DNA of 64,000 bases. It comes from Collinsella aerofaciens. Its GTDB lineage: Bacteria; Actinomycetota; Coriobacteriia; Coriobacteriales; Coriobacteriaceae. The stretch spans positions 124,001-188,000 of the forward strand of contig NZ_JADPCH010000002.1 in assembly GCF_015670745.1 (NCBI RefSeq). The letters are read 5' to 3'. Below are positions 13,078-61,233 of the stretch, one piece after another. The notes beneath the pieces are model-generated. The model searched no databases. It was not told where the DNA came from and saw only the letters and a list, made by a program, of their open reading frames with translations. How positions within the stretch are numbered: position 1 is the first letter of the stretch; each line of letters begins with the position of its first letter. The position numbers and the translations under genes were made by a program.

Positions 13078-13174
13078 TGGCGGGAACGTATGTGAATCGA
13101 ACACATCCAAGACGTTTTGCACGCCTCGCAACGGTTTTGAGGACCGCGGAGCCCACCGGAGCCCATCCGTTCCC
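13078..13174 (-). tRNA. selC: Selenocysteine tRNA (anticodon UCA)
   Basis: 97 nt including the encoded CCA at 13078-13080. The acceptor stem is GGGAACG(G)/(A)CGTTCCC. The D arm has a 6-bp stem GGGCTC/GGGCTC that closes with two G-U pairs, a tRNA-Sec hallmark. The anticodon loop is CCTCAAA, giving UCA. There is a 7-bp variable arm (GAGGCGT/ACGTCTT) and a T arm ATGTG-TTCGATT-CACAT. Position 33 reads C rather than the near-universal U. The gene lies 134 nt downstream of selB and 154 nt upstream of mobA. Confidence 0.95.
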
Positions 13175-43195: not shown

Positions 43196-43960
43196 CTAGG
43201 CCAAGGCGGCGGCGCGGACAGCCGCGCCGATCGCTCCGGCAAAGCGAGCTTGGGGCGAGGTGGTCACCGGCGACCCCAGTAGCTCGCCCAACCGCTCCAC
43301 CACGAAGGCGTTCTCGCACAGGCCACCGGTCAGGTAGTACGGGGCGCCCGCGGCCTGCCCGGCCATGGTCGCCACGCGCGATACGACACTCTCAATCACA
43401 CCACGGGCGATGTTCTCGCGCGGCTCACCACGGCCGATCAGGCTGATAACCTCGCTTTCGGCAAACACCGTGCACATGCTGCTGATCTTGGTGGGTTCGC
43501 CGGTGCGGGCGAGGTCCGTCATCTGCTGTTGGGAAATGCCTAGGCGGTCGGCCATGATTTCCAAAAAACGGCCTGTGCCGGCAGCGCACTTGTCGTTCAT
43601 GGCAAATTTGGCCACGCGGCCGCCTTTAAGCTGGATGACCTTGGTGTCCTGGCCGCCCACGTCAATCACGGTCCCGTGATCGCCAAACAGGCGCACGGCA
43701 CCGGTGCCGTGGCAGGTGATCTCGGTCACGACCTTGTGCGCATAGGGCACGGCGACACGACCGTAGCCGGTCGCGATCACGCGCACATCGTCGGCTGCCA
43801 CGTCATAGCCGGCCGCTGCCAGCGCCTCGCGCAGCCGCTCGGAAGCATCGACCGAGGAGAACCCGGTTGGCTGCACGCACGTCCACGCCACCGAACCCTC
43901 CCCGTCGACCACAGCAGCCTTAGCCGCCGTAGACCCGATATCGATCCCGATCCCTATCAT
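43196..43960 (-). CDS. 2-Hydroxyacyl-CoA dehydratase activase-like ATPase (HgdC/YjiL type)
   Basis: Homodimeric [4Fe-4S] ATPase that fires an electron into a dehydratase or double-cubane cluster protein. 254 residues: GIDIGSTAAKAAVVDG at the start, VIDVGGQDTKVIQL, MNDKCAAGTGRFLE and ISSMCTVFAESEVISL (Cys ligands of the shared cluster), and PYYLTGGLCEN. Start ATG 43960 with GGAGAGAG upstream. Its natural partners are the two HgdB-like proteins directly upstream in the same orientation. Confidence 0.92.
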   Translation of the reverse strand: MIGIGIDIGSTAAKAAVVDGEGSVAWTCVQPTGFSSVDASERLREALAAAGYDVAADDVRVIATGYGRVAVPYAHKVVTEITCHGTGAVRLFGDHGTVIDVGGQDTKVIQLKGGRVAKFAMNDKCAAGTGRFLEIMADRLGISQQQMTDLARTGEPTKISSMCTVFAESEVISLIGRGEPRENIARGVIESVVSRVATMAGQAAGAPYYLTGGLCENAFVVERLGELLGSPVTTSPQARFAGAIGAAVRAAALA

Positions 43961-44010
43961 GGCTCTCTCCCAATCTAAACATCAAAGACAGCTGCGCGTT
44001 CAGGCGCCTT

Positions 44011-44118
44011 AGCTCTAGGTTTCTCAGGTGCCGGAGATTGCCCCGAAAGAGGAGCGCAGCGTACTTTGGGTACGCAAGCGACGGTTTGAGGAGCAAAATC
44101 CGGTGCCTGAGGAAGCTA
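44011..44118 (+). ncRNA. Structured element B (about 108 nt), next to HgdB-like gene 2
   Basis: A long imperfect hairpin whose arms are around 44021-44041 and 44093-44113, with a conserved inner hairpin GCGTAC-TTTGG-GTACGC at 44060-44076. It is highly similar to element A; loops are conserved as GAAAGAGGAGCGC and AAGCGA.GGTTTGA. Pairing is better when read as plus-strand RNA, where U-G pairs replace what would be A-C mismatches on the minus strand, so the RNA may be antisense to the operon. The HgdB-like stop codon lies in the right arm. It may belong to a known Collinsella RNA motif. Strand call is inference. Confidence 0.6.
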
Positions 44119-45279
44119 CAGGGTTTCGATGAAGGCGGCGATGCGCGTCTCGATCTGGCCTATGTCGCCGTCGCTGTAGTCGGTCTCGATCTTCATATAC
44201 GGAATGCCCGCGCCCTCGACTGCCTCCTGCATGCGCGCACTCTCCACGTTAAAGGTGTGGCACGCCTGGAGCACGTTTTCGACCACACCATCGACGTGAT
44301 ACTTCTCGCACATGGCCAGGGTGTTGTCCATACGGCCGTCGTTGGGCGTCATGACCGAGCAGTTGATATCCAGGTAGCGGTCGGCGATGGCGCGCAGGAT
44401 GTCGGGAGCCTCCGGGTCGATCATCATGGCCGCCGTGCGCTCGCCCGAGCAGTCGTCCATACACACGACCACACCGCCGTTGAACTCGATGGTGCGACCG
44501 ATCTTGTTGATCACACCGCCCACCGGGCAACCGGTGATCAGAATGCGCTTGGCATCCGCCGCAACCGGGCGCTCGCCCGCGTCGTAGGCCTCGCGCAGCT
44601 TGGCGACCTTTTGCTCCAGCTGCTGCGTATAGGCCTCGATATCAAAGCTGAACGTACCAGCAAACATGGTGCTCATCAGGTCGACGCCGCTCATGGCCGC
44701 CGGCTGGTTGGCCTGCAGCGCAAACATCTCGAGCTGGGCCGCACGCAAGCGGTTGCGACGACGGACGGCAGCGCGCAGGTCGTCATCGGTGATCGTAATA
44801 CCGTAGAAGTTCTCGAGCTCCTCCTTGAGCAGGCGGCACTCCTCGTACCAGCCCTCGCGCTCGTAGGCGCGATCGCGGCTCTGCGGCAGGTGCAGAATGT
44901 GCGTGCGCTTGAGCTCGTTGAGTAGCTCGTACATCTTCTTCTTGCCGTCGCAGGTGGTCTCGCCGATGATCATGTCGCTAAAGTACGTAAACGGGCACTT
45001 TTGCGAGTAGGCAAAGCCGTAGGTCGACTTGATGAGCGGGCAGAGGTTTGCCGGCAGCACCTTCTCGGCCTCGGGAATCACCTCGTCGGACGTACCGCAC
45101 AGCGCCACACTTGCAGCGCCCGCGGCATCGATAATCTCGAGCGGCGTATAGCTGCACAAAAAGCCGACCAGGCGATTACCCGCCTGCTTATAATCCTTGA
45201 CGCGAATAAACGCCGCCTTGCGTTGCTCGTTGAACTCCTCAAAAGTGCACGGCAGCAGCTGCTCAATATTTTCCGACAT
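44116..45279 (-). CDS. 2-Hydroxyacyl-CoA dehydratase family / double-cubane cluster protein, copy 2
   Basis: 387 residues starting [17 protein letters not shown]. Iron-sulfur ligands are [12 protein letters not shown] and KCPFTY, and the diagnostic motif [13 protein letters not shown] is the HgdB/YjiM signature; the C-terminal half has [16 protein letters not shown] and [10 protein letters not shown]. It could be a dehydratase subunit or a stand-alone double-cubane reductase of the YjiM/DCCP type. A single-subunit form activated by HgdC fits the context best. The reaction is not determined by sequence. Confidence 0.85.
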
Positions 45280-45316
45280 ATAACTCCTTAACAAACCTTT
45301 TAACCAACCAAGGAAA

Positions 45317-45418
45317 CGGCTTTCCCAGGTGCCCGAGGTTGCCGTGAAAGAGGAGCGCCGCGTACTTTGGTATGCAAGCGATGGTTTGAACGGCAAGATC
45401 GGGTGCCTGGGGAAGCCG
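45317..45418 (+). ncRNA. Structured element A (about 102 nt), between the two HgdB-like genes
   Basis: 28-nt arms at 45317-45344 and 45391-45418 pair at 26 positions on the plus strand, three of them G-U. The inner hairpin is GCGTAC-TTTG-GTATGC at 45360-45375. Compared with element B there are compensatory changes (CCCGA/TCGGG against CCGGA/TCCGG, and CCCAGG/CCTGGG against CTCAGG/CCTGAG). Each element sits directly after an HgdB-like stop codon. Confidence 0.6.
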
Positions 45419-45433
45419 CTGGACCGGATAGCC

Positions 45434-46717
45434 CTAAATGGTTTCCAAGAAAGCCTCAATCCTGGTTTGCAGTTGGCCTGCATCCTCGCCGGCGTAGTCG
45501 GTCGTGATGTGCATAAACGGGATGCTGGCCTCTTCGGCGGCCTTCTCCACGGCAAACGACTCCATCTCGTAGAGCGTGCAGAACTGCAGGGCCACGTCGA
45601 CGATGCCGTCTACATGCAGGTCCTTGGCCATCTGAACGATGTCCTTCATACGCTGGTCGTTGGGCGTAAAGACGGCGCAGTTGATCTTAAAGTAGCGCTC
45701 GGCGATGGCGTCGAGCATCTCGTCGACCGTCTCGCCGGACTCGTCGACCAGGTCCTTGTAGTAGCGCGAGCCCGTGCAGGACTCCTCGCCGACCACAACG
45801 CCGCCGGCCTTCTCGATGAGGTTGAACAGTTTCCAGTTGGGCACGGCCATGGGCGTACCGGTGTACAGGATGCGCTTGGTCCCCTTGGGCGTCACGCCCT
45901 CGCCGGCCTCGACACGCTGCTCGCACTCAGCCGCCATATCGTTGATGGCTCCGGTCAGACGCGGCGTGTCGTCCATAAAGGCGGCCTGAACGGTCAGCAG
46001 GCTGTCGAGACCGCTGATGGGTGCCGGGTCGGCAGCGCGCGTGGCTGCGAGGCGCTGCAGGGCGCGACGCTTCTCATTGACGGCGTGGATGGCGGCCTTC
46101 AGACGCTCGGGCGTAATCTTGACGCCGCACTCGTCCTCGATCTTGGCGGCGAGCTTCTTGACCTCGGCCTTCCAGGTCACGAGCGTCGACTCGTCGTGTA
46201 CGTTGGGAATATCCATGACGTACATGTTCTTTTGCGTGGCAAAGAACTCGTAGGCCTTCTTCTTGCCGTCGCAGGTGTTCTCGCCCACCACCAAGTCGCT
46301 CGACTCGATGTAGGGGCAGACCTCGCCCAGCTTAAAGCCGGCAAAGCTCTTGATGAGCGGGCAGGTGTTGCGCGGCAGATGCTCCTCGACCTTGTCGGTC
46401 GCCCAGTCGGCACCCGAGCACAGACCAACAGGAATGCCGTCACAGGCAAGCACGATCTCCTCGGGCACGTACACGCAGAACGAACCGACGATCTTGGTGG
46501 CCTCGCCGGCCTCCTTCTTGTCGAGCATCTCCTTAATACGGCCGCTATGGATGTTGGTGGCCACAAAGTCCAGGTAGGACGTGGACTTGGGGCGATTGTT
46601 CTGCGTCAGGAACATATCGCCGTACATCTGGCCCACAGCGCCCAGCAGCATGTCGTGATCGGCAAGATTCATGCCGAGGCTCTCCCACATCGGATGGAAA
46701 TCGAATTCTTCAGCCAT
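45434..46717 (-). CDS. 2-Hydroxyacyl-CoA dehydratase family / double-cubane cluster protein, copy 1
   Basis: 427 residues, larger than copy 2 by about 40 at the N-terminus ([18 protein letters not shown]). Cluster ligands: [23 protein letters not shown] and [13 protein letters not shown], later [12 protein letters not shown]. The C-terminus [17 protein letters not shown] is like copy 2. Together they could form a heterodimer like HgdA/HgdB, or be two independent proteins served by one activase. First gene of the presumed operon. RBS GAGGGGAACC. Confidence 0.85.
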
Positions 46718-60754: not shown

Positions 60755-60861
60755 GCGAGAACCCGTCAGCGCGAGCAAGGTGCCTTGAAAGACGAGGGCA
60801 TTGACCTTATGGTCATGCCCGAAGGCTTGAAAGGCAGATTGCCGCGCTGACGGGTTCGCAG
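60755..60861. repeat. Long imperfect hairpin between yigZ and rnpB
   Basis: 14-nt perfect outer arms AACCCGTCAGCGCG at 60760-60773 and 60843-60856; the apex GGGCATTGACC-TTAT-GGTCATGCCC at 60796-60820 is also strongly paired, with GCAA..TGCCTT matches in between. It starts 13 nt after the end of rnpB on the minus strand. The rest of this spacer, 60644-60754, shows nothing I can name. Confidence 0.75.
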
Positions 60862-60873
60862 CGTCAACAAAGT

Positions 60874-61233
60874 GCCGAGTGGGCCTATAAGCCGGGTTCT
60901 GTCGTGAACGGTCATTTATCTTGTCTGCACGTTACCGTGCAGCTCCACGCACGCTACCCGAACGCGGACCGGGCCGGCCCATAGCGTTCCTATTCGCGCT
61001 TGCTCCGGATGGGGCTTGCCAAGCCGCCGTGTTGCCACGACGCTGGTGGTCTCTTACACCACCGTTTCAGCTTTTCCCTTTACGCCTTGCGGCGCAGGTG
61101 GGAGTCTTCTTTTCTGCGGCGCTTTCCGTCGGATCACTCCGCCCGGCCGTTAGCCGGCATCCCGCCCTCTGGAGCCCGGACTTTCCTCACGCGTGCTGCA
61201 AGCAGCACATCGCGCGACCGTCTGGCCCACTCA
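60874..61233 (-). ncRNA. rnpB: RNase P RNA, bacterial type A
   Basis: Catalytic RNA that trims tRNA 5' leaders. The 5' end is GTGGGCCAGACGGTCGC, followed by the invariant GAGGAAAGTCCGGGCTCC and, near the 3' end, ACAGAACCCGGCTTATAGGC. These are the conserved regions CRI, CRV and the P1 pairing (GAGTGGGCC / GGCCCACTC). Length about 360 nt. A -10 element TACACT (61244-61249) lies 11 nt upstream. Confidence 0.97.

Follow-up and report, generated by a model that had tools for sequence, protein, structure and literature searches.

Classical REPs are 20-40 nt long (PMC3733652), and CGTC REPs also occur without a linked transposase (PMC3733652). In E. coli, TnpA_REP is strand-specific and requires mismatches in the stem of its substrate (PMC8266576), and IS621 uses REPs there as insertion targets (PMC11208160). 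The window analyzed here, a 64,000-nt stretch of Collinsella aerofaciens DNA, holds three related hairpins, elements A and B and a copy at 60757..60860, which we interpret, with a probability of about 0.75, as members of a family of non-autonomous, REP-like mobile palindromes in Coriobacteriia.

Much of what characterizes REP/RAYT systems recurs in this family. Many extragenic palindromes are dispersed in each genome, mainly downstream of coding regions; they are strand-specific, carry conserved stem mismatches and are targets of IS110-type elements, and RAYT-like Y1 genes are found in the genome. A CGTC motif lies beside the host-side foot in 32 of 60 copies, A and B being among those without it. 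The GTAG tag occurs in just three of 60 copies, and the Collinsella-type hairpin, at ~100 nt and with several conserved internal loops, is longer than a REP unit. Unlike in a REPtron, no copy lies beside a Y1 gene, and placement at stop codons is tight and mostly in one orientation. The family thus works like a REP-type mobile palindrome, yet we do not file it as REP because its length departs from the definition, the tag is absent from A and B and there is no linked transposase. With ERIC/IRU and other MITE-like repeats it shares a similar length, a long hairpin, an intergenic position near gene ends and a MITE-like spread. It differs from them in its sequence, its clade and its outer stem, which is variable rather than conserved, and neither a matching terminal repeat nor a partner IS was identified here.

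Elements A, B and a third copy in the window

Element A (45317..45419, ~103 nt; R1 match with 109.4 bits, E 2.3e-24) and element B (44016..44119, ~104 nt; R1 match with 105.8 bits, E 1.7e-23) are imperfect palindromes on the plus strand, which is the model strand and antisense to the operon, and are about 85% alike. Both folded much better than dinucleotide shuffles, on the plus strand (z of -8.0 for A and -6.1 for B) as well as on the minus strand (-6.8 and -5.5, respectively). On the plus strand, GGUGCC opposite GGUGCC yields tandem U.G/G.U pairs, the minus-strand equivalent of which is A.C mismatches. The preliminary description of two similar, structured elements with genuine plus-strand G-U pairs was thus confirmed, as was its placement of each right behind an HgdB-like gene. 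Element B starts at the stop codon of a gene encoding an HgdB-like double-cubane anaerobic reductase (44116..45279, minus strand; NF040772, 495 bits; PF06050), and A starts 14 nt past the stop codon of a second such reductase gene (45434..46717, minus strand; NF040772, 491 bits). The outer stem of B extends to the stop codon of the upstream gene, reading CTCTAG...CTAGAG in most relatives. Element A is kept at its site in 22 aligned records; B is present in L127-L128 and L130-L133 and absent from L129 and L134.

The third copy (60757..60860, plus strand; R1 match with 75.5 bits, E 4.4e-16) is a divergent variant antisense to the RNase P RNA gene (60872..61233, minus strand; RF00010, 283.6 bits). 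Separated by 11 nt from the 3' end of that RNA, it corresponds to an insertion of ~149 nt relative to an empty site in genome G024.

Window positions 43196-46717 comprise the two tandem HgdB-like double-cubane reductase genes, followed, downstream of B, by the gene for the BcrAD/BadFG-type activator ATPase of the reductase operon (43196..43960, minus strand; PF01869, 195 bits). This operon is variable among close relatives (L129, L134). Elsewhere in the window, a selenocysteine tRNA gene is located at 13078-13174, and the source organism therefore probably makes selenoproteins.

A dispersed family at the 3' ends of genes

A covariance model built from 15 copies of the source genome returned 31 matches in its 2.1 Mb, including A, B and the third copy, a number greatly exceeding chance. 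Proteins close to the window protein come from Collinsella aerofaciens (96-98% identity). The family was present in 41 of 45 Collinsella genomes, with 0-42 copies each and 29-42 matches in most genomes of the C. aerofaciens complex, and in 122 of 300 genomes and 40 of 125 genera of a Coriobacteriia sample. In Rfam, no family matched above the gathering score and just sub-threshold microRNA noise was returned. Identity with an Rfam RNA was rejected on this basis, and the earlier idea of a copy of a known gut Collinsella RNA motif found no counterpart there. Our literature search likewise found no paper that describes the hairpin family; if so, it constitutes a previously uncatalogued, class-wide repeat family of gut bacteria.

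Two overlapping forms can be distinguished. In the A/B-like form, the outer stem begins at the stop codon or up to ~15 nt from it. In the composite form, the stop codon is followed by a short hairpin (for example, GTTACGCGGTTTTACCAAACCGCGTAAC), a linker ending in TCGACGCTGC, the large hairpin, CGCTG and a tail. The hairpin measures ~103 nt, and the unit ~140-160 nt when the short hairpin and linker are included. The composite form also occurs in an Eggerthellaceae MAG (L151) and in G121, which represents another sampled family of the order.

Placement was assessed with gene calls from a purpose-made codon-usage finder. Among 64 non-redundant copies, those between co-directional neighbors were antisense in 37 cases versus sense in five, the remaining orientations being 16 convergent and two divergent. 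Where a sense host lay upstream, 27 of 53 copies were within 15 nt of its stop codon, compared to 7.6 expected under uniform intergenic placement. The same placement rule held in the other Coriobacteriia genera checked as outgroups. Hosts were unrelated to each other and included HgdB-like reductases, an ABC substrate-binding protein, an ammonium transporter ahead of P-II (amt, named from its sequence alone), LytR and RNase P RNA. A specific association with HgdB was rejected, since other copies lie behind unrelated genes and the third behind RNase P RNA; the HgdB link is incidental. Because one copy follows RNase P RNA, we take the rule to concern the 3' end of a gene and not translation as such. 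Stop-codon identity was likewise rejected as the target: the observed counts (TAG 30, TAA 17 and TGA 1, against a background of 420/414/80) did not deviate significantly (p 0.12, 0.08).

Orthologous sites revealed both gain and replacement of copies. The SBP_bac_3/BPD_transp_1 junction is empty in 17 relatives, which carry the overlapping stop/start CTCAAGTAATG (CTCAAGTAATGTC) or a close variant. At the same point, G000, G010 and G019 share one ~140-nt insertion and G005, G045, G018 and G055 carry another hairpin, with a tail common to both hairpins. The insertion breaks the overlapping stop/start TAATG of this binding-protein/permease junction (L376-L382), where the downstream gene now appears to start with TTG and to take its ribosome-binding site from the inserted tail. 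The L070 copy, too, is an insertion relative to G024. Taken together, the polarized empty sites show that the unit inserted at gene 3' ends measures ~140-150 nt. An AACCACC direct repeat was seen at L070 only, and the ABC-transporter site showed no clear target duplication.

At the amt/P-II site, G005 is empty, and elsewhere one hairpin, a different one, or a half plus a full element is found. Three hairpin variants lie behind one LytR stop codon in different species, one genome having half of one variant followed by another variant complete. Such replacement could stem from homologous exchange among copies instead of a new insertion. The copies are thus dispersed, with gains and replacements at orthologous sites, and are located at gene 3' ends, mostly antisense. 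The "repeated mobile hairpin" that the preliminary description had offered as an alternative is borne out by the dispersed copies, polarized empty sites, copy-number variation and different hairpins at one site.

Covariation across the family and decay of resident copies

The alignment used for covariation comprised 112 matches, 92 of them distinct; about ten of the 112 rows were reverse-strand matches of the same copies and were left out of the strand counts. Standard pairing was found in 94% of pair cells, and 35 of 37 pairs showed two-sided change, which none of 500 shuffles came near. On the model strand, which runs antisense to the host gene, the A/B-like form had 117 G-U pairs versus 11 A-C and the composite form 65 versus 12, a bias that is probably somewhat inflated in size because the alignment was fitted to the model strand. 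Hence, the hairpin is conserved across the family, with wobble pairs as the signature of one strand. The wobble asymmetry does not separate DNA from RNA, since G.T is tolerated in folded single-stranded DNA just as G.U is in RNA.

Change within resident copies followed a different pattern. Across 17 orthologous sites or haplotypes, with the structure taken from one sequence each, 70 of 1392 paired columns (5.0%) and 23 of 508 unpaired columns (4.5%) had changed. The 70 paired-column changes were one-sided in 65 cases and pair-breaking in 30, with 28 G-U versus 18 A-C and at most five two-sided changes in total. Site A showed no two-sided change in 15 distinct sequences, and at site B paired differences were present in L133. 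Resident copies therefore decay as if neutral, the structure not being held at a locus, although some weak selection may remain, as this comparison spans shallow divergence. Since paired columns change as often as unpaired ones and mostly on one side, the covariation arises as copies multiply and not during residence. Such a pattern sits poorly with a functional RNA at either element, and is expected for a mobile element whose fold is important while it multiplies. The preliminary description had taken compensatory change as strong evidence for structure. That holds for structure during propagation, or for mutation by arm copying, and fails for a functional RNA at the two loci. More generally, this is a clean case in which strong RNA-style covariation does not indicate that a resident copy functions as an RNA, and covariance-based RNA discovery should take it as a warning.

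Several palindromes run on into the host gene. In L081, TTCTCAAATAG, including the stop codon, pairs with CTATTTGAGAA beyond the hairpin. At least eight host bases were paired to the far arm in five of 25 stop-proximal copies, versus a mean of 1.1 with swapped flanks and no value as high in 100 trials; the excess depends on this cut-off, as at five or more bases it was not clear (seven, versus a mean of 3.2 and a maximum of eight in the swapped-flank control). In G121, two short hairpins (L426 ~368; L427 ~12723) each have one arm made of the host's last codons, with the stop codon in the loop. Host ends in the far arm above expectation suggest that the host end serves as template for at least part of this arm, through snap-back or template switching.

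These far arms, together with the junctions of a half and a full element, also fit a reading in which covariation is mainly mutational, with template switching during replication of quasi-palindromes copying one arm to the other without selection on the fold. This reading is compatible with mobility and would replace selection as the cause of covariation. We consider it rather unlikely, as the conserved loops and mismatches survive although arm copying would erase both, two-sided changes in situ are so few, and arm copying alone does not explain dispersal. Similarly doubtful is a new kind of single-strand hairpin mobile element that would build its own palindrome upon insertion at a gene 3' end by copying the host gene end into the far arm, each copy thus being tied to the stop codon of its host and to a single strand, with no REP/RAYT or MITE mechanism involved.

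A cis-acting 3'-UTR RNA would have the mRNA strand fold past the stop codon and alter mRNA decay, the release of ribosomes or the expression of what lies downstream, copies being retained for their usefulness. The distance of copies from stop codons (0-15 nt) and the stable fold of the sense strand fit this proposal, and there are precedents: ribosomes can stall where a REP lies no more than 15 nt from a stop codon (PMC12306157), and the stability of upstream mRNA is changed by ERICs (PMC2229807). However, the family's wobble pattern favors the antisense strand, pairing is not constrained in resident copies, the same gene in a sister species lacks a copy or has another hairpin, and one copy follows RNase P RNA instead of an ORF, making this role distinctly unlikely. 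Even less probable is a structured plus-strand RNA transcribed against the operon, as had been put forward initially on the strength of the G-U versus A-C asymmetry. The strand call stands at the family level, but G.T wobbles in folded single-stranded DNA yield the same asymmetry, copies sit between co-directional genes of many operons, and a resident function is not supported, as pairing is not maintained at orthologous sites and the other strand is the one certainly transcribed. Dispersed attC-like integron sites, in which a gene and its 3' hairpin would recombine through the single strand antisense to the gene, have the same anatomy (a hairpin right behind the stop codon, a variable stem, strand asymmetry and a structure that outlives sequence) but negligible probability, as the R'' (RYYYAAC) and R' (GTTRRRY) boxes were absent from all 60 copies, on which ground attC identity was rejected, and copies are dispersed and not in arrays.

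Proposed mobility and associated elements

For the REP-like mobile palindrome that we favor, we propose that the moving form of the unit is a folded DNA single strand, namely the one antisense to the gene. A trans-acting single-strand transposase would recognize its shape together with the conserved loops and mismatches, possibly one of the RAYT-like Y1 enzymes that these genomes encode. Insertion directly past a gene end would be tolerated and apparently preferred, and the arm far from the gene may then be partly copied from the host gene end by snap-back or template switch, lengthening and repairing the palindrome.

The source genome has three RAYT-like Y1_Tnp genes, one of them broken (NF047646 below cut-off). 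A ~340-aa Y1 version is found in most high-copy relatives, and G001 and G004, with zero and three copies, have no Y1 gene. Conversely, G014 has a Y1 gene and no hairpin copy, and G005, which lacks the common ~340-aa Y1 gene, carries 28 copies. No copy lay within 1.5 kb of any of the 32 Y1 loci scanned. As the relation between Y1 genes and copy number is confounded with phylogeny, the RAYT-like Y1 transposase is a candidate mover only and unproven. The three genes themselves (G000:C33:20162, G000:C33:4301 and G000:C25:4054) are divergent and IS200-like with long C-terminal extensions, one having an in-frame TAG; one of these Y1 subfamilies is mostly single copy across the genus.

Several copies are directly flanked by IS110-family elements (PF02371, PF01548), which split the CGCTG foot. 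Such repeats reshuffle the sequence behind genes and attract other jumping elements, and the family lends itself to studying how palindromic repeats select gene ends, keep their arms complementary and draw IS110 elements. IS110-family records include positions 124-1218 in each of L091, L123 and L125, as well as L280 and L282.
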